64,000 nucleotides of DNA from Cutaneotrichosporon cavernicola (taxonomy: Eukaryota; Basidiomycota; Tremellomycetes; Trichosporonales; Trichosporonaceae). A model generated the notes under the pieces. That model made no database searches and was not told the DNA's origin. It saw nothing but the letters and a program-made list of their open reading frames with translations. The position numbers and the translations under genes are program-made. Shown here one piece after another: positions 43,369-64,000 of this stretch. Within the stretch, counting starts at the first letter, position 1. Each line of letters opens with the position of its first letter. The DNA lies in NCBI RefSeq assembly GCF_030864355.1, contig NC_083396.1:2976001-3040000 (forward strand), in the 5' to 3' direction.

Positions 43369-44355
43369 ATGTCCGGCCCCGACAATGGCGCAGCACTCGA
43401 CCACAAGGCGTTCCCAGACATCTTCGAGGCGATCCTCTCATACGCGCCCGCGGCTTCCATCCTCCGGCTACGCCTCACTTGTCGCCGACTGCGGGGTTGG
43501 GCTGATGCTCGCCTGGCCCCAGACCTGGCGATCGCGTATGTATCCTCCGTGCGCGGAGTGAGAGCGCGCTCGTCCACGGGCTTTACGCCGCACTTTCCCA
43601 CGCCCGTCTTACGGCGAACACAAGCGGCCGAGTGGCCCTCCTCCGCCACTAGGCTCTTCGCCAGCGTACTCGCGCACACCACGACTGTGGACTTGGCCGA
43701 GGTGTTCCCGCCCACTGGTCTGCATCCTCTCCCATCCTTCCTGACCAATGTGGAGACGCTACGCATTGCAGTGAGCAGAGATGGGTGGAGTGAGGCGCCG
43801 CGACCACCCGACCTCACTGGACCTCTCACCGCGCCAGAGGTCATCCTATTAGGCCCGACGAGCTGGAGCACGATGCCTGGCCTGCGGATTCCGCATGGTG
43901 TGCGGCGGCTCGTCATCAACTCGCCCCTCCACAGCCCGATGATCCAGGTGGACAACGTGGGCAGACCAACTGATTTGTCCGAGGCCGTGTTCCTCTTCGA
44001 CGCGCGCGATGGCCTGGATTGGGCAGATCCCGACTTTGCGCTCAAGCAGCAGCATCAGGCGCTCGTGTACTCTGTCGCGGGGATTCTTGTTGCGTCTCCG
44101 CGGATGCGGGTCACGCTCGTGAACCTAGACGCGTTGAGTCCCATGGCTCTGGGGATTGCGCCGGTGGAGATGGCAGGGAAACGCGTACAGGAGGTGTTTG
44201 CTGAGCGCGTGCGCGTTCATGTTGTTCGGCAGCTTGGCGAGGTCGACGTGCTGGGGCTCCAATTCCTGTCACTTGAGGAGTATGCGGCGACGAGGAGTGC
44301 GGAGGAGCTTGCCCTGGAGATGGGCGAGCGTAAGTCGGCGCATGTGGTGAACTGA
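43369..44355 (+). CDS. F-box-like paralogue 1 (intronless)
   Basis: Start at MSGPDNGAALDHKAFPDIFEAIL; 328 residues. The N-terminal motif FPDIFEAILSYAPAASILRLRLTCRRLRGWADARL fits a degenerate F-box (helix, L-R-x-T-C-R-R-x-R), the module that binds Skp1 in SCF ubiquitin ligases. Downstream the family pattern appears: APEVILLGPTSW, GVRRLVINS, a MRVTLVNLDALSP strand and a tail FLSLEEYAATRSAEELALEM. This is the least similar to the tight subgroup at 44.7-51 kb and has no intron. The Skp1-adaptor role is inferred from the fold only. Confidence 0.65.
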   Translation: MSGPDNGAALDHKAFPDIFEAILSYAPAASILRLRLTCRRLRGWADARLAPDLAIAYVSSVRGVRARSSTGFTPHFPTPVLRRTQAAEWPSSATRLFASVLAHTTTVDLAEVFPPTGLHPLPSFLTNVETLRIAVSRDGWSEAPRPPDLTGPLTAPEVILLGPTSWSTMPGLRIPHGVRRLVINSPLHSPMIQVDNVGRPTDLSEAVFLFDARDGLDWADPDFALKQQHQALVYSVAGILVASPRMRVTLVNLDALSPMALGIAPVEMAGKRVQEVFAERVRVHVVRQLGEVDVLGLQFLSLEEYAATRSAEELALEMGERKSAHVVN

Positions 44356-44772
44356 CCGTAGCTTTGTGACGATTCGAACTCTCAACGAAGCGAGGCATAT
44401 CCTGTGCTCGACTCCCCTTGGCGTCTGCGCTGCTGCCGCTCCCTTTCTCGTATAATCTGTCCGTTGTAAGGCTCACTTGAATATCTGTTTGATCTGCTAT
44501 GCACGTTGCTTGCCTCTCGTTCTGCTGACACTCTGACACTATGCTCATAACCCCTCTTGCCTCTCCCCAGCCACTGCCTCTCTTCTGTTCACCTTCTCGC
44601 AATAACTGCTGGAGCGCTCCTCGACTCGACTCTGTGGTGAAGCCGAAACCCACCCGATGGCCGGGTGCCAAGGCTGCCGGATCCGAAACACATTCCAATC
44701 GACCGTTTGGGCCCCGCACGGTTTCCAGTTCATCTCTCGTCTCACATCTCGTCCCTTCGCTGACACGACACC

Positions 44773-45677
44773 ATGGCCGACACGAACGATGCGACCAATG
44801 GTCCTAGTAGGTCCCTCTCCTTGCCTCGCTGACCGCAGCCATCGATCACCTCGCGTACCCGCACGTCATCGAGCGCGTCCTGCAGTTCGCGGACGCGCGC
44901 ACTCTGCTAGCCTTCAGCCGCACTGCCCAAGCGTATCGGCCCTGTGCAGCCGTCGCGACGCGCCACATTGTCGTCGAGCCATGCGGCCGCTCTCTCGCTC
45001 TACGCAGCTCGCGCGGTTCACTAGGCATCGAGGTCGAACCGCAAGCCCACCACATCCCGGCACACGCGCACATCCCCATGGCGAGTCTGACCCACACCCG
45101 AGTCCTAGACTTTATCGGTCCCGTTGGCCGCAATGCCCCTCGCCTTCTCCAATCCATTCCCGCCGATATCGTTCGCGTAATCCAGCGCGACGGGATAGCG
45201 AGGCATAACTTTGTCGCGTTCAAATCAACAACCACCATCGTGTTTGGCGACCTCGTCCTACGGTCTGATGCGCACGTCTCGGCGTACTGGTCTGGACCGG
45301 GAGTGCCCCCAAATACGAGGCTCGTGTGGAACATCAAGGGCATTCGGTCCGGGTCGCCGGTGACCAACAAGCTCACGGACAAGGGGCTGCGTGAGATGGT
45401 GCTCCACTTTTCTATTGATTCAATCTGCAAACTGCAGCCGGAATGGTTCGATTTACTCTCAAAGTGGATTATGATCTTGTCCAATCTAGAGGAGATTAAG
45501 ATGCGGTTCGTTGGCTTGGACGAGCTGCTTGAGCGGCTCGACATGCCACCCACGAGCATCTGGATCTTGGCACGAGGCAAGTTGGGCAAGCGCGCATCGT
45601 TCATCTCGGCGGAGGCGTATGAGTTGGAGGTGGGGAGGGAGCAATACGAGCTGGAGACGTGTGAGGAGCTGTGGTAA
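44773..45677 (+). CDS. F-box-like paralogue 2 (tight subgroup)
   Basis: Exons 44773-44806 and 44839-45677 joined by a 32-nt phase-1 intron (GTAGGT, CTGACCGCAG); 290 residues. Reads MADTNDATNGPTIDHLAYPHVIERVLQFADARTLLAFSRTAQAYR, the family N-motif. Then TRVLDFIGPVG, TTTIVFGDLV, a ligand-like aromatic loop AYWSGPGVPPNTRLVWNI, LREMVLHFSID, and the tail FISAEAYELEVGREQYELETCEELW. It ends in the shared C-terminal Trp. The intact copy gives the reference architecture for the broken copies that follow. Function unknown beyond the F-box-like motif. Confidence 0.75.
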
Positions 45678-45950
45678 TTGTGTAGGTCGATGGACGGGTA
45701 TCCGCCGCTTGTCGAAGCGCTGTTCTCGACGATTTCGGAAGGCGCAAAAGGGATGTTGGTGTGAAATGGTTGCTGTGTGGTGGACTTGACACCAGGTCTG
45801 ATCCAACTCTCAGAACCTCACCGCGCAGGCATGGATTGACATCGTGCGCCCTCAACCAGCCCCTCCACGTCGACGACATACTGCCACCTTTCAGCCATAT
45901 AACTGTTCTTCCACTAGCACAATCCAACTTCTTCCACTACCTCATCCCTA

Positions 45951-46952
45951 ATGTCTTCGTGCACCAACATCAACCCCGGTCGAAGTGATGCCGAGGACGG
46001 TAAGTCGTGCAGCAGTTCAATCTGATAACGCAGACGTGACTGCTCCGCGGAGTGTCATCGACCACCTGGACTATCCTCATCTGATTGACCTGATCCTCGA
46101 CCACGCCAACGCTGAAACCCTCCTCGCCTTCCGCCGTACTGCCAAAGCCTACGCGGACCGCTGTCTTAAAATCGTTTATCAGCACCTAGTTGTCAAGTCT
46201 ACCTGGAAGAGCCTCATCATCGCTTCCTCCCGCGGAACGGTAAATCGTCTGGCGGGGCCCTTATACGACTTCAATCTCTTTTATCTTGACTGGCACAACT
46301 GGGACTCGAGGACCTGGCACTTGTTTAAAAATTGTCGTGCACTGGACTTCGTCGGGGGGGGGGTCCCGAATGGCCCCGGCCTATCACCGTTTCCATCCTC
46401 GGTCTGGAGCACTTGCGCATCATCAAGTCCCCCGACTACCTGGAGCACGACCTTCCCTACTGCTCCGTCCCAACGTTGGTCATCTTCGGGATACTCCCAG
46501 AGCCCGACTGGCTCTCGGAACCCGATTACTATTGGGAAGGCCCAAATTTTCCTCGCGCTGCAAAGTGCGCATGGACGTTGGAGTCGTTTCCGGTCTCGCT
46601 GCGCTACCGAAGTTTAATCTTCCCGGAGGAGGTGCCGGGCCTCGTTGTCCTGCATTTCTGCCACTTCAAGGCATCTTCTCTTGCGGCAACCTTCTCCTCT
46701 CTCTTGGCCAATATCAAATACATTCTTGAGCACTCAAGCTTCACGACAATCAAGATTGTCGACTTGGACCAGGCCGACTACTCTGATCTTCTGGCTGCCA
46801 AACGCTGCGAAGTCATTCAGGACTGTCAGAGCTACCTCGCGAAAGAGCTCGGACCGACCGGTGCAGGTGTCGCCTGTCTGACCCGAGAGGAGTATATCGC
46901 CGAGTACGGAGCCGAGCAATACCACATCGAGACATGCAAGAAGCTGTGGTGA
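45951..46952 (+). pseudogene. F-box-like paralogue 3, frameshifted at a G10 run
   Basis: Exon 1 45951-45999 and a 34-nt phase-1 intron precede SVIDHLDYPHLIDLILDHANAETLLAFRRTAKAYADR. The frame runs to CRALDFVG at about 46353, where ten G residues (46354-46363) throw it out of frame. The rest of the family pattern continues uninterrupted in another frame: GPEWPRPITV, TLVIFGILPEPD, LVVLHFCHF, IKIVDLDQADY and the tail CLTREEYIAEYGAEQYHIETCKKLW. Total coding length is 2 modulo 3, so one base too few or two too many. Either a recent frameshift, a slippage-prone switch, or a sequencing error in the homopolymer; otherwise the gene is intact. Confidence 0.75.
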
Positions 46953-47628
46953 AGTCAAGATGAGCAACACAGTGAGTCGCGGCTGTCTACCTTTCAGCAG
47001 ACGCTGATATAAGGCGCTGGTCGCTATTACAGCTTGCGGATAGGATAGGATAGCCAGAAGTAGTGTGAGCGTGGATGCCTATGTACGTTGGGACTGTCTA
47101 GGATCTACATCTCGAGTGTCGATAGCTTAACATATGTCTATAGACAATTTGCATCTGATTATGCATCCGAGTAGCTCTGAATGTAGAGCGATTGATTCCT
47201 TTTCCCAGCTTATCACGGGTCTTGGATCACCCGTGTGGAAGTATCTACTGTACGTCAGGTCTCCCACGAATGCGGTCCTCCTCTTCGCTTCTCCCGACCT
47301 TGACTTCCCAAGGGGAGTCTAGTATTGAAAGGGTCCAGAGGCTCCTGCGGCGACCAGGCTTGTATCGACCGTCGAGAACGTTGAGTTCTGTTCAAGGAAC
47401 ATGGCTGGCGGGATGTTGAACGAATGATGACGTGTGTGAACATGGGCTGCATGGGATCCGTTTGCCGCTCACAGGCTCATAGGCGATCAGCGAAGCGCCC
47501 TCGATGGGCAGACGTCACGAAGCGACACGGCGTCAGAAGGAACACAAGGTTTAGAGAGAAGATCCTCTTCTCCATAGCGGAGCCTTCAAGAGGTCTGCTA
47601 GCATCCTCCAGAATGTCTCCATCCCACC

Positions 47629-48604
47629 ATGTCTCAATTCAAACCACTCGCTCACTGTGGTACCACCTCACCGTCAACTGAAGGTATGTTCCTGCTAGGA
47701 CTTGTCTAACGATGTAGGCCGGGGCCTCATCGATCACCTGAGCTACCCACACATCATCGATGAGATCCTGTACCATGCCAACTCACAACTACTGCTCACC
47801 TTCCGCCGAACATCCAAACCCTACGCTGAACGGTGTTTGAATATCCTCGCGCACCATGTTATCGTCTCGCAGACTGGACCGCTGGTGGTCAAATCGTCTC
47901 ACGGAGACCTACCCCGCTTTTCGGGATACTGGGGCGTAGGCCACCGAATCAAGAGCAGACCGTGGTTCTTCCACCACTCCCGCATTGTAGATATTCACGA
48001 TACGATCGGACCCCTCGCTTCTGAACTTCTGGCGCCGTCACTCAAGAACCTCGACACTCTCCGAATCTTATCCAGCGTCAACAGTGTGAAAACCGGGAGA
48101 TATCGCCTCGACCTTATCCACTACACTCCACGCTCTGTGGTGGTGTTCGGAGATCTGCCAGACTATAACCACTCGAACCACGGTTTCTACGTTTGGGCTG
48201 GGACGACTCTGCCCGCCACCAGGAAGGTTGTGTGGGCGGTATCGCGTATCACTCCCTCGGTATCCAGGAATTCGGGGAATTACGTCTTCTATTCGCCTCA
48301 TCGAGTTGAACGGGCCGTTTTGCATTTCTGATTCTGTCACACCGAGGACGTAGAAACAATGTTGGCTCGGCTGGCTCGAATCGTCAGTTATATCGTAACG
48401 ATTGGGCCGTTTACACGCGTCATCATTGTCGATCTGGACCAGGTACATCCCGAGTGTATGGAGCGCATGAGCCAGCTCGTGAGTACCCTCGTTGCAAATC
48501 TCGGAGATCGGGCTGCGCGGGTGACGTTCATGAATGGCGAACAGTACTGTGCTGCATACGGAGCTGGGCAATACCGTATTGAGACTTGTGAGAAGGTCTG
48601 GTGA
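47629..48604 (+). pseudogene. F-box-like paralogue 4 with an in-frame stop codon
   Basis: Exon 1 47629-47683, 34-nt phase-1 intron (CTAACGATGTAG), exon 2 47718-48604. N-motif: GLIDHLSYPHIIDEILYHANSQLLLTFRRTSKPYAER. Family signs follow: SVVVFGDLPDYN, FYVWAGTTLP, RAVLHF. At 48329-48331 a TGA interrupts, created by a 6-nt tandem duplication (TTCTGA/TTCTGT) where the neighbour has HFCHF. After it the same frame continues intact for 91 codons through VIIVDLDQVHPECM to FMNGEQYCAAYGAGQYRIETCEKVW. It could be a young pseudogene or use readthrough; pseudogene is more likely. Confidence 0.75.
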
Positions 48605-49079
48605 GAGCGTAACGTGAGTGAGATGCGATCCTAGTCCCAATCAGGGTGGCTCACGCCCAGCCTAAAACAGATCGAACGCGATGGTATTCGGACCGACGTA
48701 GTTGCGGGAGTAGCGGAGAGCGACAGACACGTCGGCGTTCTTGCAAGGAGCTTGCATTGTATACCTATGCGAGTTATGAGTATTCCAACTTGTGTCTTTC
48801 TGCGAGCAGCGCTGAGCGGTACCTCAAATGGAGGAATGTGGCAGATTAGGTGAAAAGAGTGGGGCAGGAAATGGGGGACCCGCTTGACGCTGGCGCAGGA
48901 CGGCGCATCTGTGACGATACTCGGCGGTTTGATAGACAAGCTGCACACCTTCTTGGTTCGCTGTGACGCCTGTATTGCCCCTAGCAGCAGATGCGGACGC
49001 CATGATACGTCACTGGGTGGAGACGCGGAAGTTGTCATCTGCATCACCATCTTTAATATTCTTGAGAACTCATGCCACT

Positions 49080-49521
49080 CGCCAGTCCACCACCAATCTC
49101 GTCCAACATGCTGCATCAGTACTGGACCGGTATCCCCTCCAGTTCGCATCGGACCGGGCCAACCTCCTCCGGTTCACGGGATTCCGGCTGGGTTTCGACA
49201 AGCTCCATGACCGAAACCAACGCAGCGGATTTCACACATCCTAGACATCTGCGGACAGACCGGTCCCAAGTGTCCTCTAGTGCTTATAGTCGCTGCAGCC
49301 TTCTTGTCAAGATTGTAGATCTTGAGAAAGTCCGATTCTCGCATTCTCAGAATTGTGACTCGAGGGAGCCGAGTCTCGTATCCTCGCCCAGCTCGAGGGC
49401 AATGCGGACCGCCTTTGTTCATTTCTGCCAACGATATTGTCACTGGTATGGGGTGGAGGCGTACCGTATTGAGAAGATTAGTTGTGACGCCCTAGTTCCT
49501 GACAGGGACAGTGTGGCGTGA
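49080..49521 (+). pseudogene. Decayed relic of an F-box-like paralogue
   Basis: No full ORF, but family fragments remain in order in shifting frames. There is an aromatic-loop-like QYWTGIPSS near 49103, then LVKIVDLEKVRFSH near 49305 (cognate to IKIVDLDQADY of paralogue 3), and a tail piece WYGVEAYRIEKISCD near 49446 (cognate to YGAEQYHIETC). The N-terminal F-box-like part is not recognisable. It sits in the right place and on the same strand as the other copies. Confidence 0.55.
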
Positions 49522-49993
49522 GTGAAGCATAGAGACGTCAGCAGGCGCATCCTGTTGGTACATTGTCCTAAGAATAATTCTGCTGATCGGCGGGCTTGTG
49601 GCGAAGCGCACGATATACACGAAAACCCAGCGCCTTTCTTCTCGTCCGCCATATTCCACTGACGGCCATCAGAGCGATTGTGTTTTCAGACCCTCCATAT
49701 GTCCACCATGTGTACTACAGTATCAGTCATCAGATCTTGCAGAGCGGCGCAGGACATTCATTCATCCAATATTGCGCCCCAAGCGCCTTCACGGATGACA
49801 CAATCTCGCCACTACGTACTATCGTACCTTCTTTTTGCATCAAACCACGCTGACGCCGCCCGCATCAATTGCGAGTCGAACTGTGTTAAACCGAAGCGTA
49901 TATAGAGACATGGGATGTTCTACACCGCCCCGCCTCCAAAACACGATTTACCACAGTTCACACCCCTTACCTCCTCCATCGCATCTGCACATT

Positions 49994-50970
49994 ATGGTCG
50001 ACTCTCACACTACACCCAAAGGTGTGTCACCAGCGACGGAGCCTCGTCCCTCTGCGCACTGACTGCAGACCATGTCCTCATCGACTCGCAGGTGTATCCT
50101 CACATTATCGAGCGCGTCATCAGGCATGCGGACGCGGGGGTCTTGCTCGCCTTTAGCCTCTCAGCCAAGGCATATCGCAACGTCTATTCCAAGAACGTTG
50201 CCCGACACTTGGTCATGCTCAGCGGCAAGACACCATGCATCGTTATCACCTCCCACCGTGGGCCAGTCTCGATCCCCACCCTGCCAATGTTAAAGATCAA
50301 GGCCCTCATGAAGCGCAAAGCCGAGTTCTTCAAACACTGCACGACGCTGGACGTCAAGGACGACCTCGCTTCCTACCTGCAGTTCACCCTTGTTCTCCCA
50401 CAACTCAAGACTCTCCGGCTCTTCCTCAACCCAAGTGGCTTCCGCAAAGCCCTCCCTCACCTCGCCAACACCTCGATCGTCCTCTTTGGCGTGTATCCCT
50501 TCCACGACACGGTTTGGTCCGATAACGTCGTCTGGTACGGGCCCACAATCTATCTCAAGGACAAGGTTGTGTGGAACGTCACTGACTTTTACTGCCCCGA
50601 GCTTCGAACCAGCCGACTTGTAGACCTGTGGCGCGTCAAGGAGTTCGTCATCTACTTCAACATTTCCCCGAACGCCCGCGTCAAGAACTGCCTCTTAATG
50701 TCGATTACTGAGACGTTGATTCCCGTTCTCCAGCGCTCGGTGAGTCACCCGAATCCGCTACAGTTCAAGCTCGTGGGCTTTGAGACCCTCTCCCTCGAAA
50801 ACGTCAGCTTTGTCAACTCGTATGCAGAGAGCACCGAGGAGAGGACCCAGTTGGCTCACAGTCAACTCGATAACGTAGCCAACCGCATCTTGTTCATGAC
50901 GGCTGAGGAGTACTGCGCTGAAGTTGGGCGCGAGACTTTTGAGATCGAGACTTGTGAGGAGTTGTGGTGA
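49994..50970 (+). CDS. F-box-like paralogue 6 (tight subgroup)
   Basis: Exons 49994-50021 and 50069-50970 with a 47-nt phase-1 intron (GTGTGT, CTGACTGCAG); 309 residues. MVDSHTTPKDHVLIDSQVYPHIIERVIRHADAGVLLAFSLSAKAYRNV is the N-motif. Then TSIVLFGVYPFHD, VVWYGPTIYLKDKVVWNVTDF, VKEFVIYFNIS, and the tail FMTAEEYCAEVGRETFEIETCEELW ending in Trp. A longer ORF opens upstream at 49915, but its extra residues read through the intron and are not family-like. Confidence 0.75.
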
Positions 50971-51203
50971 GCAATGGGGGGTTTAGGGGGCAAGTGGCGG
51001 TTGAGGGAGGGAGAACGGCCACTTTCGGGACGGGAACAAATGTGGGTGCCCGATCGGCAACTAACCTGATAAACAGGACCTCCCGATAACACACATTCAT
51101 CCACAACATCCACCAGCGGTCCTTGTCGCTACATCTCTCGACTTGACACCCCTCTCATCATTTCCTGATTCCACCATCGGCTCCTCCAAATCAGCCCACG
51201 ATA

Positions 51204-52412
51204 TGGACATCGACAAAGAGAAGCGTAAGAGCTGGCTAGCGCCGGTTTCACAGCTGACGCTCAGCTCCACTTCCCGAATTCTGGATCGACGATAGCGTCT
51301 ACCCTCACATCACCGACAATGTCCTGCGTTGGTCTTCGTGGGAGACACTTTGTGCCTTCCGGTGCGCATCCGAATCCCACCTCGCACGCGTCGATGCACT
51401 CATGGGGGAGCATGTCGTCCTGGCATGCGACACGCCGCCGCGAATGAACGTGACGTCGCCATATGGACGTATCCCCGGAATGCGCGACAGACACTACATG
51501 GACTGGGCGAAGCCGGGTGGAAAGCGCAACGGGTCGGCTCTGGAGCGCTCGAAGCAGCTGATGAAGCACACGCGCGTCGTCGACCTCATCGGTACTGGGG
51601 ACCTGTCGCTGATACCCATCTCGAACTCGCTTACGGGTGTCCGCGTCCTCCGCGTCCGGCCGGACCAGGATAACGTCCAGGTGTACAAGACACACATCAT
51701 GGCTGCGAAGATGGTCGTGTTTGGCGATGTTGGCGCATCACCTGTTTTGTTTGGCGACTTCCGCACAGTCGTCCCGGCCGGCGTGAATAAACTTGTCATC
51801 AACATCCGATATCATCCTGCGCAGGACGGCGAGGTGCGGTTCCCCGTTATCATTGAGCTGTTCCCGCCTGATCTCCCGGAGGTGGTGGTGTATATCGTCG
51901 AACCACGATGGATCAACACGCATCCACCATGGGACCGCGAGCGTTTGCAGCGCCAGCGCTGGAATTCGATGTCGTCCAGCCTCGCGGGCATGCTCCTGCG
52001 CACGCGCCGGCGCGATCTGCGCGTCACCATCGTCGGGTTACGCAGCGTCCACCCTGGCTGGGTGGAACATCACGTGGATAGCGTGTCCCAGCTCGAGGGC
52101 CGGCTGCTCCACGACGTCGAAACCTCGCTGCGAGAGGAACTCCGCCGCCGTCGCGGTCATGATGCTGGCGTGGAGCGATCTTCGGAAGGAAACGCGCGAG
52201 ACGACGCGAAAGATCTTCGCGAGTGGCCGTTCCCTGACGCCTCCACGGCTGTACAGAACATCGTGTTCAGCACGCGTGAGGCATACGCTGCAACACTTGA
52301 CCCGTACGAGCACCTTCTAGAGACGGCCGAGGTGCTCGAGAGCGACAAGCGCGATCCGCCTCTCAGGGAGAAGTGGCCGAAGAACGAGATCATGGGGTTT
52401 GTTGGTAATTGA
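51204..52412 (+). CDS. F-box-like paralogue 7 (shares the phase-1 intron)
   Basis: Exons 51204-51225 (22 nt) and 51265-52412, 39-nt phase-1 intron (GTAAGA, GCTGACGCTCAG); 389 residues. MDIDKEKPPLPEFWIDDSVYPHITDNVLRWSSWETLCAFRCASESHLAR is a diverged N-motif. Then TRVVDLIGTGDLS, AKMVVFGDVG, VNKLVINIRYHP, EVVVYIVEPRW, RVTIVGLRSVHPGW and IVFSTREAYAATLDPYEHLLETAEVLE. It lacks the terminal Trp and has an extra lysine-rich tail. Confidence 0.72.
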
Positions 52413-52586
52413 GAGTCTGCCCGCTTGCGCGAATGGCGGGTTGTGTGTATAGCGATGATGATCGCTGCGGTCAACAAGACTGGGTACTTGAAGGAAATTC
52501 CGGCCGTCTAACCTTCCCTCCTCACATCTCTTCATTCCATCACCCAATCTTCTTTCGACCAGTCTACTCATCCACCCATCATCTCC

Positions 52587-53861
52587 ATGTGCTCGTCGGG
52601 TTCGAACTCGGCATCAAGGTCATCAGAGTTCCCCGTAGCAGCCGTAGCCCCAGCGGCTACCTTCGCTATTCCTTCGCGTGGGCTACCGCCAGTGTTGCTC
52701 GACGTACCTTCCCTCGGTGCAAGTGGATCGGCCCAGTCTACTACTTCAGGCTCGCCATGGTCAACTCCTGTGACGCCATTCTCGCCAGCGTTTCCGTTCG
52801 ACCCACAGACTCCCCAGCTTGGTCACAGTAGTGAAGACGAGAACAATTCCAATCAAGGTTGCGGCAGCCAGACCGATCTGATCGCGCCTTCGTCGGGCAC
52901 GCTGGCGACATCCGTGACCGATCCCAGGAGCATCCTGTCCTCTACCCATTTCGATCTCGTTCTACGGAGGCACGACACCCTCCTCTCCTGGCTGCGCGCT
53001 ACGCACCGTTCCGACCAAACCTTTGTTGGCGGCAGCGTGTATCGACACCTTGAGGTCTCGCACGATGGCAATGGCACTCTGCTTGGGTCCCTGTCGGTCA
53101 CCCCGCACGGCGGTAAGACCCAGCTGGACTGGGCTACCAGAAACGGAGCGTGTCTGGAGCAGACTCGGGTTGTCGACTTGCATGGCGAGCTGCCATTCCA
53201 TTCCTTGGTCTTCTTCACCAACCGGCTCCCGAACCTCGAAACGGTGCGGCTCTTCCCTGACGACGCTGGCAGGTGCATCGACAAATGCCCAACTGTGACC
53301 AAGAACCTCGTCATCGTCGGTGAGCCGAAGGTACCAAGGAAAGATCCCGGCGAGAGCTGTATCCCCATGGCGACGCCCTTGCTCCGCGTCGTCATCCACG
53401 TCGATGCCTTCAGCAACGCCAACAGCCTGTGGTACCACCAACTGCTGTTCCCCTATGGCGCCGAGGAGATCGTCATCGTCTTCACGGGCTGGAAGAGGCC
53501 GTACAAGCCCAAGACCCGGCCTCGTAGCTGCTCGAGCACCCAGAGTAAATCGCATGCCGCACGCGAGCGCTTCCAAAACCTGCATTACGCAGTTGAGCAC
53601 ATCATCACCAAGTTTCTCGGTCATTCCGGGATAGAAACAGGCGGGATCAGGTGCACGATCGTCGACCTCGACACTGTCGATCCCGAGTGGTTCGGCCTAC
53701 CCCACGATGCCGCAGTCGCACGCTGGTTGCATGAGGAGGTCCGGGACAGTCTGAACACTCGCCGTTGGGAGGGGGTTGCCGAGGAGGCCATCAGCCTCCT
53801 CTCCTTCAAGTCCGACGCTCAATGGAGAGAAGAACTATTAGTTGAGCAGGACGGCAGCTAG
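52587..53861 (+). CDS. F-box-like paralogue 8 (long disordered N-terminus, intronless)
   Basis: 424 residues. The first 110 are Ser/Pro/Ala-rich and disordered, so the N-motif is replaced or very weak (SSTHFDLVLRRHDTLLSWLRATHRSDQ). Later family elements are clear: TRVVDLHGELPFHSL, NLETVRLFPD, TKNLVIVGEPK, LRVVIHVDAFS, AEEIVIVFTGWKRP, RCTIVDLDTVDPEWF and a degraded tail. Membership rests on the order of these strands and its position in the array. Confidence 0.6.
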   Translation: MCSSGSNSASRSSEFPVAAVAPAATFAIPSRGLPPVLLDVPSLGASGSAQSTTSGSPWSTPVTPFSPAFPFDPQTPQLGHSSEDENNSNQGCGSQTDLIAPSSGTLATSVTDPRSILSSTHFDLVLRRHDTLLSWLRATHRSDQTFVGGSVYRHLEVSHDGNGTLLGSLSVTPHGGKTQLDWATRNGACLEQTRVVDLHGELPFHSLVFFTNRLPNLETVRLFPDDAGRCIDKCPTVTKNLVIVGEPKVPRKDPGESCIPMATPLLRVVIHVDAFSNANSLWYHQLLFPYGAEEIVIVFTGWKRPYKPKTRPRSCSSTQSKSHAARERFQNLHYAVEHIITKFLGHSGIETGGIRCTIVDLDTVDPEWFGLPHDAAVARWLHEEVRDSLNTRRWEGVAEEAISLLSFKSDAQWREELLVEQDGS

Positions 53862-54051
53862 CTCGTATACATGTAGATTCAGGTTCTTGTAGCGTCCCTT
53901 GTTTTGCGTCCGGTACGTACCAACACATGCAATGTTGTTTGGAAGGACATTCGGGGTTGTTTTGTTGTGGTGACCGGCCAACTAATTTCGCAAGTGGAGG
54001 TCGGCTGATCTTTGGCCTTTTTAACTTGCATCCAATCTCCCTTCTCAGCAC

Positions 54052-55080
54052 TTGATCATGACCGTTGCCACCCAGTCCGCCGACGATCCAAGCACTCTCA
54101 CGCCGTCCATGGCCTCCATATCCCTCGACTCGTCCGCCTACCCTCACATCCTGGAATCCGTACTCGCCTACGCGCCAAAGGAAGCCCTAATTGCCCTTCG
54201 CGGGGTGTCAACCAACCTCCGAGACCGGGTCGACGCCGTCCTCTGCCGCCACATCCTATTTACAAGTTATTCACCCAACGAGATCTTCGGCAAGACCGGG
54301 GGCATACCTGGCCTATGGCCAGCCTGTGACTGGAAGGAGGAGGGTGAGGTGCGAGTCCTCTCTCATGCCCGTGTAGCCGACATAATCGGGCCCTTTGGTG
54401 CGCCCGACGCTCGCGCCTCCCAACTCTCCTCCACCCTCAATCGCCTGGAAGCGGTGCGCCTGCGGCATCACCCGGCCGGGCCACTGAGCATGATCTGTCC
54501 CCTGTCCGCACCGCTTCTGGTGACATTTACGACGTTGACCGAGGTGGGAAGCTGGGACCACCCGGCAGTTGCAGAGGTCGGTCCCGTGCCGGATGGGGTG
54601 GAGAGGTTCGTCCTCAACCTCCGGTACGACCCTGGACGGAGCTGGATGTCGCAGGCTCATATACCGCCGTTCTCACGGCCCAAGTCGCTCAAATATGTCG
54701 TGATCGTGTTTACCGAGAAGACGACCCATCAAGAAGAAGAGGTGTGGTTCAGGCGCGCAAGTAAGCCGATGGGCTTACTTAACTCGATCGTCCTTGGTAT
54801 GACTATGGCGATTCCGAAGGGCGTCGAGTATACGTTGGTGGACGCCGAGACGCTGCGCCCCGAATGGCTCGGGAATGACGGAACAGGCACAATTGTCGGG
54901 AGGGAGGAGGGCGCAATTGAGGGCGCAGTCAAGGATAGCGTTGTGGCCGGGCTCAAGAAGTGGGAGAGGTGGAGTGATCAAGTGGCGGCAGAGGCCGCGG
55001 GTGCCATTGCGTTCCGCACGCGCGCCGAGTATCGCGCCGAGGTTGGCGAGGCTGCGTTCGAGCTGCACACGGTCGAGTAA
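54052..55080 (+). CDS. F-box-like paralogue 9 (intronless)
   Basis: 342 residues, or 340 from the second ATG at 54058. N-motif: SSAYPHILESVLAYAPKEALIALRGVSTNLRDRVDAVLCRHILF. Then ARVADIIGPFGAPD, LEAVRLRHH, VERFVLNLRYDP, LKYVVIVFTEK, EYTLVDAETLRPEWLG and the tail IAFRTRAEYRAEVGEAAFELHTVE. Intact and convincing as a family member. The 830 bases after it (55081-55910) contain only short overlapping ORFs that I cannot assign. Confidence 0.72.
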   Translation: MIMTVATQSADDPSTLTPSMASISLDSSAYPHILESVLAYAPKEALIALRGVSTNLRDRVDAVLCRHILFTSYSPNEIFGKTGGIPGLWPACDWKEEGEVRVLSHARVADIIGPFGAPDARASQLSSTLNRLEAVRLRHHPAGPLSMICPLSAPLLVTFTTLTEVGSWDHPAVAEVGPVPDGVERFVLNLRYDPGRSWMSQAHIPPFSRPKSLKYVVIVFTEKTTHQEEEVWFRRASKPMGLLNSIVLGMTMAIPKGVEYTLVDAETLRPEWLGNDGTGTIVGREEGAIEGAVKDSVVAGLKKWERWSDQVAAEAAGAIAFRTRAEYRAEVGEAAFELHTVE

Positions 55081-55910
55081 GGAAGTGGGCAATGCGGCGC
55101 GGCAGGCGCGCACACTCGTGGGCGTTAACGGCTCCACGCTGGTTCATTGCGACGTCATCTAGTCCCACGCGTCGCGTCGGCGGCGCGTCGCCCTCTGCCT
55201 CACGATCCAGCTGCGAGCTGCGCAACAAGACGGTGAGACCAATCAAACCTCGTGAACCGCCATCGCGACGACGTGGAACAGTAGCCGAGACTGTATATTG
55301 CAGCTCATGGGAGATGCTGATGTATGCATATCTCTGGTACAAGGTCTAACCTGCGGACGTGGCTGCACGTGTCCTCCTCCCGGGCGAACGTGTATCGGTC
55401 CAGGATGGAGGGAGATTGATAGCCGTGCACGAGCTGACTATATCCGCCATGCGCGCCTTGACTGCCCAGCACGACTCCTTGCCTTGACACGAGACAAGTT
55501 CGCCTTCGGCTGGACGTCTGAGCGGCGCGCCACGGCACGAGAAAACCGAGCTCGTTGATCGTCGATGACCAGTAGCGAGCAGCGAGGTGCTCCCCAGCGA
55601 TTGAGCGACACGCCGTGCAGACCCGACGAGTTGGCACAAGAGAGGGCTGCAGCACGACATCAAGGCCTTGAGGATAGGCATCGGGGCCAAGGCCAGAAGC
55701 GCCCACATGCGCGGGGCTGGGGACGATGGCAAACGGCGCGTGGTGATCTTTGCAGGATGGGACTTGGATGATCACTAGCCAGTTAAGTCTTGTAGTTCCA
55801 TTCTCCGTCCATCCTCGCCTGAACGCCAGCCTTCGCGGTGTCGCCGTCACTGTCGTTGAGAACAGGACAAGGTGCTTGGGTAGGCAGTCGGTTGACGTAA
55901 ACCTAACTCT

Positions 55911-57089
55911 CTACCAGCTCGACTGGCTGCACCGCCCTCGCACACCCCCATCCTCAGGATGGCGGGCCTCGAGCTCGAACTGACGGTGTCCTACACGCAG
56001 CGCATACTCCGCGGGGTCGACGAGCGTGACGCGCGTGCGCCACGTCTCCTCGAGCTTCGTGTCGATGTATGCCTCGAACTCGTCGACCGTGGGCGTCGGG
56101 GTGCAGTCCATCTCGTCAAGGAAGGCAGCGACGCCGACAAGCGTCCACTGTACACCGCGGTCAGCGCGGCGGACCTCGTTGATGATCGTGCGCAAGAAGC
56201 TGAAGTTGGGCAGGCGGTTCGCGTACGCTGCGGCGGGCGTCAGGCGGCGCGAGCGCCGGCGGCCGGGGGGTTGTTTGAAGTGCGGGGCGTTGGCGTTGGC
56301 GAGGATGATGACGGCCTCGCGCAGACCCGGGACGTGTGTCCCGAATAATCCGACGAGGTCCTGTCGGTACGCAAAGTCGGGCTCGTAGGGTATGGTGAGG
56401 ACGAAGCGGCGCAGGCCGAGAGGCAACGTTGGCGCCTCAACCCAGATGCCGCTTCCGCAACGATTAACCGAGCAGGGGTCGTCGTGGGCTATTGCGCCGA
56501 TGCACACGAGGGTCCGTGCGCCGGGCGCGCTCGCCAGAAACTTGGAGTACCGGAGGTGCAGTTGGGTGTTGGAGATGCGGATGAGATCGAGATTCGGTGC
56601 ATGGGTCGCGAGGGTAGATACGAGGTCAGCGGTTTTGGTGGAGTAAAGGTTGGACTCCCATGCCTCAATGTTGGTGAGAGACAGTGTGCGCGCCCCCGCG
56701 ATCCGTGGAGGTGGAGCCTCTCGCGCACGCCAGCGCAGCAGCGGTTTTGCTGGACCTCGCGGACCCGGTACGGTGACGTAGAGCCCTTGGTCGGAGGTTG
56801 TCATGTCCGAGCCGACTACAACGTGTCGGAACAGCCGGGCATCCACTTCCTCGCGATACGCGCGCGATGCTCCGCGCATCGCTAGGAGGGCGTCTGTGTC
56901 GGCATGACGAAGGATCCGCTCGACAATGTGCGGAAAGGCGAGGTGGTCGATGGTGACACGCGGTGGCGCGGAGAGGGTTCTCTTGAACTGTCGCTTCGCG
57001 GGTTCTGGCGGCCACGAAATGGTCATGTTGGCCTCAGGAAGGGCGCGCTTGGCCGATGAGGCGGTTGGTATAGGTGTTTGGTCTTGCAT
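55911..57089 (-). CDS. F-box-like paralogue 10 (minus strand, intronless)
   Basis: 392 residues, the first array member in inverted orientation. A Ser/Thr/Pro-rich lead precedes the N-motif VTIDHLAFPHIVERILRHADTDALLAMRGASRAYREEVDARLFRHVVV. Then ARTLSLTNIEAWE, ARTLVCIGAIAH, LRRFVLTIPYEPD, LREAVIILANANAP, VQWTLVGVAAFLDEM and the tail VTLVDPAEYALRVGHRQFELEA. A 15-residue extension ends in Trp. The N-motif is close to paralogue 2, yet there is no intron. Confidence 0.72.
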   Translation of the reverse strand: MQDQTPIPTASSAKRALPEANMTISWPPEPAKRQFKRTLSAPPRVTIDHLAFPHIVERILRHADTDALLAMRGASRAYREEVDARLFRHVVVGSDMTTSDQGLYVTVPGPRGPAKPLLRWRAREAPPPRIAGARTLSLTNIEAWESNLYSTKTADLVSTLATHAPNLDLIRISNTQLHLRYSKFLASAPGARTLVCIGAIAHDDPCSVNRCGSGIWVEAPTLPLGLRRFVLTIPYEPDFAYRQDLVGLFGTHVPGLREAVIILANANAPHFKQPPGRRRSRRLTPAAAYANRLPNFSFLRTIINEVRRADRGVQWTLVGVAAFLDEMDCTPTPTVDEFEAYIDTKLEETWRTRVTLVDPAEYALRVGHRQFELEARHPEDGGVRGRCSQSSW

Positions 57090-58704
57090 CCTTTAAAGGT
57101 CAGCTTGTGTAGAGCTGTTGACAATCTGACGTGGTCAGTCCTGGTTTTGGCCGATGATACAGTAGCAGTGCACATCCCCACCAGGAACCAAATAGCACGC
57201 GGGATCAACCTGACTCTCAAAACCTGCTCGTGTCAGGCTGATGATTATCGGTCGGCCAGCCTCCAATCTACCTCAACACCAAAACGTTGTCCGCGCAGTT
57301 TGGTTTCGTCCACTCGCAGCCCAGAAACGTACGCGCCAAGGCCGATATCCATGTGAGTCGGGGTTTTCAATTATCAGATAAGCCCTGATCGAAGCGCGCC
57401 CTTATGAAGTATAACTTTGTTCTCGGCGATGAGAGCATGAGTCTCCCCTTCGCAAACGCCATGCTCTATCCGCGGTGCGACTCACAATGACAGTCCCTAG
57501 TGCGGCTGGTCGTAGACTATGGCCGCGGCTGCCCTTTGGCACGTGTCCTCCAGCGTCGGTCTGTCGATGATCAGCGTTTATCGACGCCGACTCGACAACG
57601 GCGGCGACGACGTCGCCCGCCTGCCCGCCAATCCGCTGCCAGGTTGATGAGGACCACCTCGTCCTTGTCGACGGGGTCCCCGCCGCGTGCATCGGCACAG
57701 TCCAAATGCCGTTGATCTCGCTCCAAGGTTAGCGAGGAGGTTAGCAAGGGCGCGCTTGAAGAATCTGCTGCGATGTAGAGCCGGAACACTCACATGGGTG
57801 CGACATGCCCATGCCAGGCGGGGCGAATGCCCACATCACCTGAGCATTCGCCCAGCCTCCGCTCCGTGTCCCCCTCCCCTTCCCTTCCGCCGCCACCGCT
57901 GTGACGGTTCGCCAAAGTCGGCCACTCGTGTCGCGTTGTGAAACGAGGGGTAGCCGCTGCTGCGTGACCCAACAGTTCGCGAAGCGGGCTAGGGCTCGCT
58001 TAGCGAGTCCTCACTTGGTTGTACTGGAGACTGTGGGTTGAGCGTGAGGTCCCGTCTCCGGCACCAACCCCTCGTGCCGAACGCCCGCCGAACAACATGT
58101 GGAAGGCGACCAGTCGCGGTCGCGGAGGTCGTTCCTCCACAGCTGGTGAACTTGGATGGACTCGATGGCGGCGGGAGGCGGGGGTCGACATTGAAGGTGG
58201 CTTGATACACTTGACGCCGGCACCGCGTGTCAATGGCAAGTGGTCGAGAGAAGTGGCGAAGGAAGGTATCAATGAGCCAGGAGACTACGCCCAAGGGCGG
58301 GCACCGCACGCGCAGTGGGCGGCTGTGCGCCCATCAAGCCTGACGAGTGGCCAAAGATGAAGAGTAGAGAGTGTTGAATGGTAGGGTTGAAGGAGATGTG
58401 AGGAGGCAAAGGTGCGCAGTTGAGGTGAAGGTGTTGACAGTGCGGAAGAGAAGTGTAAAGTGGAGGCGATACGCCATCTACACACTCTCTTGCAAGTTGC
58501 AACCACTCCCTCACTCTTTCCTTCCACCAACTCCCTCATGCTGCTGATTCCAAACATCACAATACTTTTCCGCGCTAGCATCGCTTCCCCAATCACCACC
58601 ACAACTGCGACGCTCGCCACTAGCGCTCACTCCACTTTCCTCGCACTCCTCACGCAACCTTCCCTCACATCATCTTCGCTCCTCGCACTTTCTCTCGCAC
58701 TGCC
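57090..58704. other. Intergenic region between divergent paralogues 10 and 11
   Basis: 1.6 kb, the longest gene-poor stretch in the array. Short ORFs overlap on both strands (for example 57402-57789 minus) but show no family motifs, and their codon pattern is not convincing. The 200 bases before 58705 are a CT-rich leader. A decayed paralogue cannot be excluded. Confidence 0.4.
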
Positions 58705-59784
58705 ATGAGCCGCCCACCGCCCCGCAAGAAGCAGCGGGTGCTGCGGCAGACGGACATTCGCGGGTTCCTCAAGCCGGGCCTCCCGACCCTTCAGCATCTC
58801 GACTTTACCCAACATCCCACAGTCGTCAAGATGATCGTCACGTACCTTCCTCTCCGGTCGCTCTTGCACCTGCGTCTTGCTTCGCGTGCGTTGCGAGATC
58901 ATGTGGACCACATCCTCCGCGGCCATCTGGTCCTGAAGCCGGGAAACCATCTCGACGGCATCACTGGCCCCCTCCCAACGTTTCGGCATACGAATGCGGA
59001 CGAGGTCTTGGGTCCCAGGCGCTGCTGGTGCACCTACTGTCGCCGTCACCCCAGCAAGATTGAGCGCGATCGCGTCCGGACAACTCTCCTCGACGCTCGC
59101 ATTCTCGACTTGCGCTATATGACCACCCACAATCTTCGAGTACTCAAGAACCTTCTGGCCGACAGGTGTTCACCCGTCCCAATCGTCCGGCTCTGGATGT
59201 GGTGCACCAAACCCCAGCCCGGCGCCCTCCCCATATCCGCCTCGACTCTCATCGTCTTCGGCTGGGCCGGCGTGTGGGAGCCGACGAACGGTTACCGTTG
59301 CGAACGATTCAGGCTCCCGCCCTGGGGAATCCGCAAAGCGGTTTTCAACCTTCAAGTCTCCCAGACCAAGGTTCCTTTCATGTTCCACGGCCTCTTTGTC
59401 AAGCGCACTCCTCCCGCAAGCCTGGAGAAAGTCGTGTTCGTCTTCCACGCAAACTGGGCATCCGACGATCGCCCTTCCGCGCTCGAGCCGCTGCAAGCCG
59501 CCATCCCGCGGATCCTCCAGCTACTCACGGAGGCACGGCAGCGGCGGCTGCAGATCATCTTTGTCAACGCCGAAGCCATCTTCCCCGCCACATTCCCCAT
59601 CCCAAGTCACAACACCAAATACCCCAGTTTCTCCGAGTGCAGCTCCCTCATCGAGTACGTGACGGCGTACTACATATCGGTGCGAGGTAGTGAGGAGTTT
59701 ATGGAGAAGGTGATGTTCATGACCCTGGACGAGTACCGAGCCGATATCGGGCCAGAGATGTTCCGGGTGGAGACTTTGGGATAG
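58705..59784 (+). CDS. F-box-like paralogue 11 with a PIP-box-like N-terminus
   Basis: 359 residues. The first 25 (MSRPPPRKKQRVLRQTDIRG then FLK) are basic and contain Q-T-D-I-x-x-F-L at residues 15-22, close to a PCNA-interacting PIP box with the T-D of PIP degrons. The N-motif follows: FTQHPTVVKMIVTYLPLRSLLHLRLASRALRDHVDHILRGHLVL, the most F-box-like in the array (Y-L-P-L-R-S-L-L). A C-x-x-C pair near RCWCTYCRRH is unique to this copy. Later signs: TLIVFGWAGVW, EKVVFVFHANW, IIFVNAEAIFP and MFMTLDEYRADIGPEMFRVETLG. Confidence 0.75.
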   Translation: MSRPPPRKKQRVLRQTDIRGFLKPGLPTLQHLDFTQHPTVVKMIVTYLPLRSLLHLRLASRALRDHVDHILRGHLVLKPGNHLDGITGPLPTFRHTNADEVLGPRRCWCTYCRRHPSKIERDRVRTTLLDARILDLRYMTTHNLRVLKNLLADRCSPVPIVRLWMWCTKPQPGALPISASTLIVFGWAGVWEPTNGYRCERFRLPPWGIRKAVFNLQVSQTKVPFMFHGLFVKRTPPASLEKVVFVFHANWASDDRPSALEPLQAAIPRILQLLTEARQRRLQIIFVNAEAIFPATFPIPSHNTKYPSFSECSSLIEYVTAYYISVRGSEEFMEKVMFMTLDEYRADIGPEMFRVETLG

Positions 59785-60584
59785 CACGAGTTGTCAAGGC
59801 GGGGGGAGTAGGAGTATGCCATGTAACTTATGCGCAGCGATAAGGTCAAGAGCCTGTGGCTGGCGCAGGCCCTGGTGTGTCACTTGAGATTTCAAGGCAA
59901 CTCATGGGTGAGCAACTCGCGGTCCGTGCCCAAGAGATGCCTTCTAATGAGTCGTTGTGAATCGGCCCGAGAGTATGACGCCTGGTTCAAGATCAGGTCC
60001 TGGATTCTGGGTTTGGCTGACGTTTGCCTCTTGGAACGCTCGTATCAGGGGTGGTGACACTGCGATTTTGTCCGCGTTCCCTTTCTAGTGATGAGGTTGG
60101 CGGCACAGAGGAGATCCGGTAAGGACTAGATTTGAGGAGGAGGAATAATGGTTGTGGTAGCATGGTTGTGGAGGCAGAGAGGGCTGGGGAATGTGTGGCC
60201 CAGGATTAAAATGTGTTTAACCAAAGCCCATCTCACACGGCAGCTCACAGCGTCGGGATCATCGTTTACCCGAAGCGAAAACATGATGAAAACATGGATT
60301 TTACGTGTATTTTCTCATCCGGAAAACAATCCTTGATGGCATTTTCCGTGTGTGGGAACACGAAGCAAATGTGCATTTCTCCGACAGTTTCCATGTCAGT
60401 AAATTGCAAAGCACGTGTACGGCAGGGAGCACGTCATACACCCCGTGGGTAATTGTAAGGCAGTGTTGGACCCGGATCACACTCGGCCTAATGGCTCTAA
60501 CTGATACATACGCATGCAGTCCTATAACATGCCCACCTTTTGAACCTATTTATACCGCCAAACTCAGACTTGCACGCCAGACTT
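59785..60584. other. Intergenic region between convergent paralogues 11 and 12
   Basis: 800 bases with no supported gene. Convergent 3' ends; composition is more AT-rich than in the coding parts. Confidence 0.4.
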
Positions 60585-61829
60585 TCACAGCGGCTCTCCC
60601 ATCTCGATCGCAAACCGCTCGGGCCCAAGCTCCTCCTCCCACTCCTCGAAGGAGATGAAGCGGTAGTGCTTCTCAATGATTCCCGGGACCCCCATCCTGT
60701 TGATGAAACGCTTGAGGAGCTCGCCCACAGGGAGCGGGTCGATCATCCATCCGAAGGGAATCCGAAGCCTCTCCAACACGGTCGTGGGTATTGACGATGT
60801 GGGGTTGACGACTGTAATTTTGAGGTGGCCTCCGTCCATGTCACCGTCGTACCAGAAGGGAAAGAGGCAGAGCAAGTCGCTAGGTATAAAGGTCTTGAAC
60901 GAGTGGGCGACGTAGACGATTTCCTCAGTGGCAGGAAGATTGGGTTCAGAACAGAGACTGGAGAAGTGGTGGAAATGGATCCCGCTCTCAATCGTGTTGC
61001 CGATGTGGATGATGAGACGTTTCGGAGGTGCAAAGTCGAGAGTTGGCAGAGCGGCTGGTTCGTAGCATAAGGGTGGACGGTGGGCGAGTGTGGACCGACA
61101 GGGACTGATTGGCAGGAGTGGGGAGCCTAGCGGCTGGAGGAGCGGGGTGCTGCAACACAGGACAATGGTGTCGGCGCTCATCTCCAGCTTCCCGTTGCGG
61201 CGGATGTACGATCGTTCTGGGGACAAGCGAGGTACAGTCCATATTCGCAGCACTGGGAGGCGCTTGTCCACGTAGAGGATCCCGGGAAGGGTGGTGCTTT
61301 GCCGACGAACCAGGATGGAGTGGCGTATGTCGAGAACCTGAGTCTTCTCGATCAGGGACTGGAATGCGGCGTAGTAGTCTTCGCACTCGGTAAATGTGAG
61401 GGAGTGGTTGAAGGGACTGCGCCGGACATGATCCTCCCGTATGTCTTTGACCCCCCCTGGAGTGAGGGATTCGAGATAATTGAGGTAGTTCTCGTGGCCC
61501 ATGTTGAATCGGTACGGGATGTTGGTCTTTTGTACGAGGAAGGCCGATTTCTCGAAGATGGGGACTGTTCCGTGGCGGAGAACGGGGATCTTGACACATT
61601 CCTTCTTGAGAGAAGAGAGAGCTTCAGCCGCGAGAGTGCGGGAATGACGTGAGGGTGCGATAACGAGGTCACCGTCCATCCAAACTAAATGTCTTGCGAG
61701 CTTTGCATCGCAGCGCGTGCGCAGAGTTGATGAAGTCGCACGGAGACTGATGAGCGCTGATGTGTCTGCGCTGGCGATGATCTCGTCGAGGATGTGAGGG
61801 AAGAAGGCAACGTCGATGACTACGGGCAT
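60585..61829 (-). CDS. F-box-like paralogue 12 (minus strand, intronless)
   Basis: 414 residues. N-motif MPVVIDVAFFPHILDEIIASADTSALISLRATSSTLRTRCDAKLARHLVW. The central region has an insert with LTFTECEDYYAAFQSLIEKTQVLDIRH. Then ADTIVLCCSTPLL, PKRLIIHIGNT, TEEIVYVAHSFK, LKITVVNPTSSIP and the tail RFISFEEWEEELGPERFAIEMGEPL. Complete and clearly a family member. It has an H-L-V-W block in common with the partial gene at the window end. Confidence 0.72.
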   Translation of the reverse strand: MPVVIDVAFFPHILDEIIASADTSALISLRATSSTLRTRCDAKLARHLVWMDGDLVIAPSRHSRTLAAEALSSLKKECVKIPVLRHGTVPIFEKSAFLVQKTNIPYRFNMGHENYLNYLESLTPGGVKDIREDHVRRSPFNHSLTFTECEDYYAAFQSLIEKTQVLDIRHSILVRRQSTTLPGILYVDKRLPVLRIWTVPRLSPERSYIRRNGKLEMSADTIVLCCSTPLLQPLGSPLLPISPCRSTLAHRPPLCYEPAALPTLDFAPPKRLIIHIGNTIESGIHFHHFSSLCSEPNLPATEEIVYVAHSFKTFIPSDLLCLFPFWYDGDMDGGHLKITVVNPTSSIPTTVLERLRIPFGWMIDPLPVGELLKRFINRMGVPGIIEKHYRFISFEEWEEELGPERFAIEMGEPL

Positions 61830-63068
61830 GGCCGGGAATATTTCGAGTCTGGATGATACCTGGACAGTAAGAAAAGTTGGATGGAGATGAGAGAGGATGA
61901 GAAAGTTAGTGTTTGTCTTTTAGTCGTCGCTTTTATAAAACAAGGTGTTGTGACCGTGCGATACTTGAAGGCAACTGAGACATTCTCACAAACAGACTCA
62001 TTCACGTACAACCTCCACCTCCATATCTACCTCCACTTCCACTTCCACTTCCATAATGATACACTGTACAAACCACTGCGTTTCCAGATGCTCATCAAAT
62101 ACGTCTGGCAGTGGCTGCCCCAGTCTAATCCAACAAGGCCTCCTCAATCATGTCGCCAAACAGTATTTGGATACTCTCAGTGCCAAATAGAGCAACCGTT
62201 TCTTCACGCTCTAGGAGGTCCAACTTGAACCGTACTTGGGCTGGAGATGTTTCACCCGCTCAGAGTGCTGAATATGCACTGTGAGGTGACGGCTCGGCTC
62301 GACTCAGCTTACCTGCCGTAAGCCATAACCCCAACGACCCCAACCCTTAGACATACCATGGATTAGAGTGTCAGAGCGAGGGATGAGTGAGTGTTGTCGC
62401 CACGGCGGCACAGACCTCTGGACATGACAGTGTCACGTGAGCCGCTCTGAGCACTGAGCACTGAACAGTACCGGTTCAAAACCCTCCGTTGAGGCAAGAG
62501 ATCATCTATGGACCACTTTTGGACCAATCAATCTGTGGGACCTCAGATCTTAGAGATCAGCTCCTTGGGAAAGACATTTCTGTTTATGACAGAGCGTGGC
62601 TTGACGAGGATCATTGATCACGGGCCAACTGGAGGTGATGGGGTTACGGAACTGGCATCGAAACACTGGAACGCATGGTAGTCACCCCAATTGATATGAT
62701 GCGGGCAGTGAAAAGGTTCTCTGATGAGACGACAGGACCCAGTCTATCAATCTCCATTGTTGATTCGGTAAATCCACACTCGACAATGTGGCTGACTTTC
62801 CCCTAACTCTTGATGACGGCGACTCGGCCAATGGGTATTTCCCACACGGCTTGGTTAACATGTTCACAGGCCTCGTGTCTGTCCTCTCCAACCTGGAACG
62901 AAACGGTATATATGCTTCGCTTGAGACGACCAAATCTCCTCACCGCCTCGTCTCTCGTCTCGCAACTCTCAACCCAAGACCACAGCTACCACGCTCTCAC
63001 GCAACTCTCAATCGCCCATCTTCACAACACCTCTTCCTCCATCGCCACAACCACATTCACTGTCCAAC
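61830..63068. other. Intergenic region between divergent paralogues 12 and 13
   Basis: 1.24 kb. A C-A-C-T-T-C-C repeat (CCACTTCCACTTCCACTTCC) at 62032-62051 and a short ORF at 62788-63216 that overlaps the next gene in another frame, taken as a shadow. Nothing else identifiable. Confidence 0.4.
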
Positions 63069-64000
63069 ATGCCCTTCAAGGACGCCCTCGACGAATGCTA
63101 CCCTCACATCCTTGACGATATTGTCGACTACAGCGAGTACGCGGCCCATATCCCGCTCTACAATGTCAACCACTACTGTCGCAACCGGATCGACACTCAC
63201 CAGGCCAAGCACCTAGTCTGGGACGATGGGCTCTTCACCAAGACCCTCGACGGCCAATACGTCCGACCCCTCAACCCCCTCCTGGCCGCACGCCTGCCCG
63301 CGGCTCTGACTATCAATGAACTCCTTTCGGAGCAGCGCGCTCATCTCGACCTGTTCCGAATTACCCACATTATGTTCAGGTTGAAGCCCCCGCGCAGTAG
63401 TCGGGTTGGCCCTCCCTTTAAGCAGCTGCCTCCATCGCCCCAGCTCCAGAACCTACTGGCCATCAACCAGGTTTTCGACATCTACGAAAAGCGGAACGGG
63501 GAGGACGACTGTCTCATCAGCTTTCCCATCAAGCCGTCTGTACTCCGCTTCTGGCCTGTGGTCCGCAACATCGCCTGGCGCGCTACGACCTATAACGTTG
63601 GCCAAATTGACACGCTCGTCATCCTCCCCGCCCGTGTCACTCCCAAGTCTCCTGTCAAGGCACCCCGCTATACTCTTTGCCTTGGAATTGACGAGGTCAC
63701 GCCGTTTATTAGCGTCATATCGGCCAACCGCATCGTGCTCCACCTCCGCGATAACTCGCTCCACCTTCTCGGGGACGTGCTGGGAACTTCCGCCATTGAG
63801 GGCACAGACATTGTGCTGATCGCTAGCGGCTGGAAGATGGGCGGAATCACCACCTTCAATGGGTTCGCCTACCTGCTCTGGATGATTGTTGATAGCATGA
63901 ACGACAAACAGTCTATCACCCTTGTTGACGACCAGGTACAGGTTTCCAAGCGGACGCTAAAGACCCTCCGCCAGAAGACCGGGGTGCCCGGCCTTGAGTC
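63069..64000 (+). CDS. F-box-like paralogue 13, cut by the window edge
   Basis: Open frame from the ATG at 63069 to the last base with no stop, at least 310 codons. The start MPFKDALDECYPHILDDIVDYSEYAAHIPLYNVNHYCRNRIDTHQAKHLVW is the family N-motif, closest to paralogue 12 in the H-L-V-W block. Later: VGQIDTLVILPAR, ANRIVLHLRDNS, TDIVLIASGWKMG, SITLVDDQVQVS. The C-terminal tail lies outside the window. No intron is seen in the visible part. Confidence 0.7.
   Translation, partial: MPFKDALDECYPHILDDIVDYSEYAAHIPLYNVNHYCRNRIDTHQAKHLVWDDGLFTKTLDGQYVRPLNPLLAARLPAALTINELLSEQRAHLDLFRITHIMFRLKPPRSSRVGPPFKQLPPSPQLQNLLAINQVFDIYEKRNGEDDCLISFPIKPSVLRFWPVVRNIAWRATTYNVGQIDTLVILPARVTPKSPVKAPRYTLCLGIDEVTPFISVISANRIVLHLRDNSLHLLGDVLGTSAIEGTDIVLIASGWKMGGITTFNGFAYLLWMIVDSMNDKQSITLVDDQVQVSKRTLKTLRQKTGVPGLE

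Follow-up and report, generated by a model that had tools for sequence, protein, structure and literature searches.

The 64,000-nucleotide window analysed here (the whole stretch, bases 2,976,001–3,040,000 of contig C4 of Cutaneotrichosporon cavernicola) ends in a tandem array of F-box genes, the largest cluster in an extensive and for the most part unrecognised F-box family that probably consists of many old, separately maintained substrate receptors. At least 112 distinct loci, broken copies included, belong to the family in a genome of 20.2 Mb, and most of them fall below Pfam detection. This count combines four single-sequence whole-genome searches with four loci from local matches to a profile hidden Markov model (HMM). 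A common docking part joined to a private, maintained body is the pattern expected of separate substrate receptors, and what we observe favours many old, specialised receptors of Skp1–cullin–F-box (SCF) ubiquitin ligases over a recent burst.

An iterated profile HMM run over the window and the remaining contig (E up to 0.1) placed ten near-full-length and two interrupted copies between positions 43213 and 64136, and no family match in the window's first 43 kb. Near-full-length open frames begin at 43213, 44811, 49906, 51258, 52512, 54025, 55914 (minus strand), 58624, 60588 (minus strand) and 62925, and the interrupted copies appear as the frame pairs 45952/46329 and 47699/48332. A thirteenth copy, a relic at 49.3–49.5 kb, is absent from this list and was caught only by a profile of the neighbouring subgroup, against which it scored 17.2 bits, where the best of 60 mononucleotide shuffles reached 4.1. 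The about 13 copies, mostly on one strand, that a first-pass annotation had proposed are thereby recovered, 11 of the 13 being on the plus strand, and by HMM they fall in one family. The array is not confined to the window: four further copies lie downstream on the same contig (3,097,500 bases long, one of 8), the next at contig positions 3040752–3041942 and three more up to the contig end, where no telomere repeat was seen. On the other side, a SURF1 gene directly precedes the array. The statement that no other genes lie between the copies is uncontradicted, short of proof, in that none of eight spacer or antisense open reading frames had a Pfam match over the cut-off (one matched TEX19 weakly, E 0.025); the scan comprised these eight and two SURF1 pieces ahead of the array.

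The assignment to F-box proteins is supported by sequence and by two predicted structures. When 47 N-terminal regions were compared as a profile with the PDB, the best 8 of 12 matches were F-box proteins (best E 0.0011). In the genome search four family loci exceeded the Pfam F-box-like cut-off, and 2 of the 8 copy-10 homologues carry a Pfam F-box. AlphaFold models of copy 8 (54058..55080, plus strand; me0c8a5f0cf08) and copy 10 (58705..59784, plus strand; m9e5c6ee0d37b) both predict a three-helix F-box followed by a body resembling leucine-rich repeats (LRR), the F-box-like helices spanning residues 20–29, 32–39 and 43–53 in one model and 38–46, 50–59 and 61–71 in the other, and coinciding in each case with the sequence match. 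KDM2B was the first structural match for both models; glycosidase barrels among the top Foldseek rows (probability at most 0.25) were taken as unrelated. At E 0.1 the Pfam matches of the 47 members included neither an LRR family nor a WD40 family of the kind that marks the FBXW subclass. The repeated architecture described by the first-pass annotation holds as that of a single family, but its Y-P-H-I motif is lacking in copy 7 (52587..53861, plus strand), which has a full-length body behind a degenerate F-box.

Across the genome the loci are strongly clustered: 83 of the 112 belong to clusters whose gaps do not exceed 15 kb, a number that averaged 17 and never passed 34 in 1000 random draws. 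The largest cluster is the array in the window, with 13 loci when one outside the window is counted and the relic is not. Two loci elsewhere differ in layout. L014:4231-6015 (minus strand) is a family member whose 595-residue frame carries a proline/alanine-rich C-terminal repeat extension, and L053:420-1901 (minus strand) is a single open frame hit by the family profile at two distinct places, possibly owing to a partial second domain.

The paralogues have diverged far more in the body than at their ends. The F-box averaged 35% identity, the body 17% and the C-terminal cap 31%, as measured on 46 of 49 aligned rows after two broken rows and one truncated row were dropped. In a tree of the 49 rows the median end branch is 1.63 changes per site, and the tree is poorly resolved: open drawing was needed for 29 of its 46 inner branches, and long branches meet. 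The copies at 44811, 45952, 47699 and 49906 form one local group (Shimodaira–Hasegawa-like approximate likelihood ratio test, SH-aLRT, 97); copies 11 and 12 form another with their first neighbour beyond the window (SH-aLRT 91), and the remaining copies of the window are dispersed over the tree. Its closest pair, at 3004 and 3006 kb on contig C2, shares 45% identity over 471 codons, with 0.50 non-synonymous (dN) and 1.70 synonymous (dS) substitutions per site by the Nei–Gojobori method (NG86), which, dS being near saturation, is only a hint of constraint. For the four members with which the whole genome was queried, the best non-self match had 35% identity over most of its length. A recent duplication of the whole array was therefore rejected for the compared copies, there being no close paralogue among the 49 rows, which sample at least 112 loci and leave room for close pairs among the rest.

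Between species a different picture emerges for the two copies that could be tested. Among close homologues, taken as one group of 8 proteins for copy 10 and one of 10 proteins for copy 8, in which not every row need be an orthologue, the F-box is 61–62% and the body 60–63% identical, so that the two parts are equally conserved. Close homologues are 57–96% identical for copy 10 (96% in Cutaneotrichosporon sp. HIS471, 63% in C. oleaginosum) and 73–82% for the seven nearest to copy 8 (77% in C. spelunceum, 79% in C. oleaginosum). Members change at very different rates: in the comparison of C. cavernicola with HIS471, copy 10 retains 96% identity, but copy 3 shares only 55–66% with its likely counterpart. 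The locus tags of the relatives span 0411340 to 0411680, which suggests that HIS471 carries the array on the same chromosome. In the copy-10 group, the longest contig given for P0003 measures 16,790 bases, as does that for P0007, and the two may be separate copies from a single genome. P0013, in the copy-8 group, has this figure too, and P0005 and P0014 share one of 13,806 bases; such figures common to both groups suggest that copy 8 and copy 10 lie next to each other in other genomes too. P0016, the C. spelunceum homologue of copy 8, has the locus tag CspeluHIS016_0900040, which suggests that it is among the first genes on its contig and hence near a contig end.

The first-pass annotation had proposed active birth and death of copies. 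Decay in the subgroup at 44.8–51 kb agrees with this, but the long end branches, the 45% identity of even the closest pair and the close homologues that two window copies have elsewhere speak for age. Apart from the degenerate F-box of copy 7, visible decay within the window is confined to that subgroup.

Several observations weigh against a family of Skp1-dependent receptors. Pfam F-box detection at E 0.1 is weak (8 and 7 of the 47 members), in some copies the F-box is divergent or degenerate, and a single array holds two interrupted copies and a relic. The weak scores and the degenerate copies would fit F-box-derived helices that have ceased to bind Skp1, the family then being LRR-like binding proteins with a different job. 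We regard this as improbable, the F-box being the best conserved part across the paralogues, which is unexpected for an idle surface, even if such conservation could equally serve folding. The broken copies would fit genomic drift, that is, mostly dispensable copies multiplying and decaying without a selected function. Drift could also draw on the position of the array less than 79 kb from the contig end, on the divergence of copy 3 from its likely HIS471 counterpart, and on the 19 of 96 loci outside the window's arm that lie within 150 kb of a contig end, compared with about 12% expected, although an excess so modest means that the family is not simply subtelomeric. On the other hand, 48 of the 49 census loci located on the chromosome arm and in the main stretches retrieved elsewhere (L002–L008 left out) have a frame nearby that covers at least 200 of 370 profile positions, a figure that leans high since 20 stretches were chosen among stronger matches and copy 3 passes on its C-terminal piece alone. 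The sole miss is copy 4. Together with the close homologues of copies 8 and 10 in other species, in which body and F-box are conserved alike, this makes drift very unlikely as an account of the family.

If the members are indeed separate substrate receptors, each intact protein would dock through its N-terminal three-helix F-box on the single Skp1 of the genome, and this docking would link it to a cullin-based SCF ubiquitin ligase. The body, predicted to be an irregular LRR-like solenoid closed by a conserved EEYxxxxGxxxFxxET cap, would hold the target protein. Paralogues sharing the docking part and differing in the body have most likely arisen by local tandem duplication, with additional loss in one subgroup. 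Skp1 binding, ubiquitin-ligase function and the existence of substrates are what we infer from these features. Skp1 had one match in the genome and cullins had matches at several places. Some F-box proteins of yeast, such as Ctf13 and Rcy1, act outside SCF ligases, and the presence of an F-box would suit proteins that bind Skp1 for such a purpose just as well; more than 100 loci with diverse bodies on a common docking part are better matched by interchangeable ligase receptors, and a role outside SCF is accordingly a poor candidate for the family at large. As SCF receptors, the more than 100 proteins might instead form a recognition repertoire that marks for destruction proteins of foreign or selfish origin, such as those of mycoviruses, transposons or mating partners. 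There are parallels in the nematode F-box genes tied to innate immunity and in the F-box genes of plant self-incompatibility. We find such a repertoire unlikely, and an arms race is disfavoured for copies 8 and 10 because body and F-box are evenly conserved in both groups. The role in self/non-self or stress-specific protein turnover that the first-pass annotation raised is speculative.

The sole Skp1 match (L024, G000:C4:3070504-3070647) shares a chromosome arm with the array, 30 kb past the window. It is 11.6 kb from a family member, and 16 members lie within 55 kb of it, for which the chance expectation is 0.1% in a count made post hoc. A linkage of Skp1 and the family as a functional cluster was not adopted, as a random point would be equally near to a member 6.5% of the time and the proximity may be coincidence.

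The individual copies of the array, numbered along the window, mostly hold nearly the whole protein in one main frame. Copy 1 (43225..44355, plus strand) is a full-length F-box/LRR-like gene. Taken with its frame neighbours it reached 24.4 bits against Pfam F-box-like (cut-off 24.3) when the genome was searched, and 20.9 bits, below the cut-off, in the protein scan. The local subgroup at 44.8–51 kb begins with copy 2 (44811..45677, plus strand), whose main frame is open from 44811. The at least ten complete frames counted in the first-pass annotation have their equivalent in the ten near-full-length copies, but a single frame is not the whole gene in copies 3 and 5, which have a short upstream exon (at 45951 and 49994, respectively) placed via the starts of annotated strain proteins. 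Copy 3 (45951..46952, plus strand) is interrupted, its homology switching frame near 46362–46377; a run of ten G at 46354–46363 lies beside the break. Stretches at this site are skipped in the HIS019 and HIS002 gene models, and the model of the HIS471 relative spans the site but misses another stretch of about 40 residues. This suggests a loss in C. cavernicola, but a homopolymer or assembly error or faulty gene models may be responsible instead. Copy 4 (47702..48604, plus strand) is interrupted by a single in-frame TGA at 48329–48331, and the relic (49291..49476, plus strand) is a C-terminal part from the same subgroup. Copy 5 (49994..50970, plus strand) has a main exon that ends at 50970, and its segment 50068–50967 is 100% identical over 300 amino acids to C. 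cavernicola CcaverHIS019_0411560.

Copy 6 (51258..52412, plus strand) has a full-length main frame with stop codons just upstream, for which a 5' intron may be the cause. Copies 9 (55911..57089) and 11 (60585..61829) are full-length on the minus strand, the latter with 99.8% identity to CcaverHIS002_0411680, and copy 12 (63069..64000, plus strand) crosses the window end with its frame open to contig position 3040136. In copy 10, positions 58705–58776 encode a basic, low-confidence N-terminal tail with the sequence Q-T-D-I-R-G-F-L, which we take to resemble a PCNA-binding motif. The form Q-x-D-[IL]-R-x-F-L is retained in 7 of the 8 copy-10 homologues (P0001–P0008) and lost in C. oleaginosum. 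As a candidate PCNA-binding motif it was set aside, three matches among the 49 members against 2.1 expected by shuffling not being a significant count.

F-box expansions are known in plants, and the proteins described here are a new family of a known kind, of a scale unusual for a small yeast genome. Among known systems they resemble FBXL proteins (such as the C-terminal region of KDM2A/KDM2B, SKP2, FBXL3, FBXL5 and FBXL17) in their N-terminal F-box and in a following body that may be an LRR-like solenoid. No description of the family was found in the literature searched, which did not extend to subscription journals, and the term F-box does not occur in the main text of the genome paper (PMC10568926). 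With Pfam catching a small part of the family, counts of the protein-turnover network in these yeasts would come out too low, and other fungi may harbour comparable hidden F-box sets. The small genome of a haploid yeast would also be a simple setting for asking what purpose a very large F-box set serves. According to the accessible part of a comparison of fungal F-box sets, which are likewise SCF adaptors and in some cases contain LRRs, Cryptococcus neoformans has 19 F-box genes among 6,431 (0.3%) and Laccaria bicolor 95 among 23,130 (0.4%, the highest of the fungi compared there), with Arabidopsis at 1.6% in the same table (PMC7991009). At least 112 loci relative to the about 7,750 annotated genes given for C. 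cavernicola in the accessible text (PMC10568926) amount to about 1.4%, well above those fungal counts, with the reservation that detection methods differ and some of the loci are broken. There is a likeness in organisation with the expanded F-box families of Caenorhabditis, which, in the portion of the report available, are also tandem-duplicated and diverged and number 39 to 1426 genes per species (PMC8665587). Expansion is described there as mainly species-specific, whereas the paralogues sampled here are old and two of the window copies have close homologues in other species.
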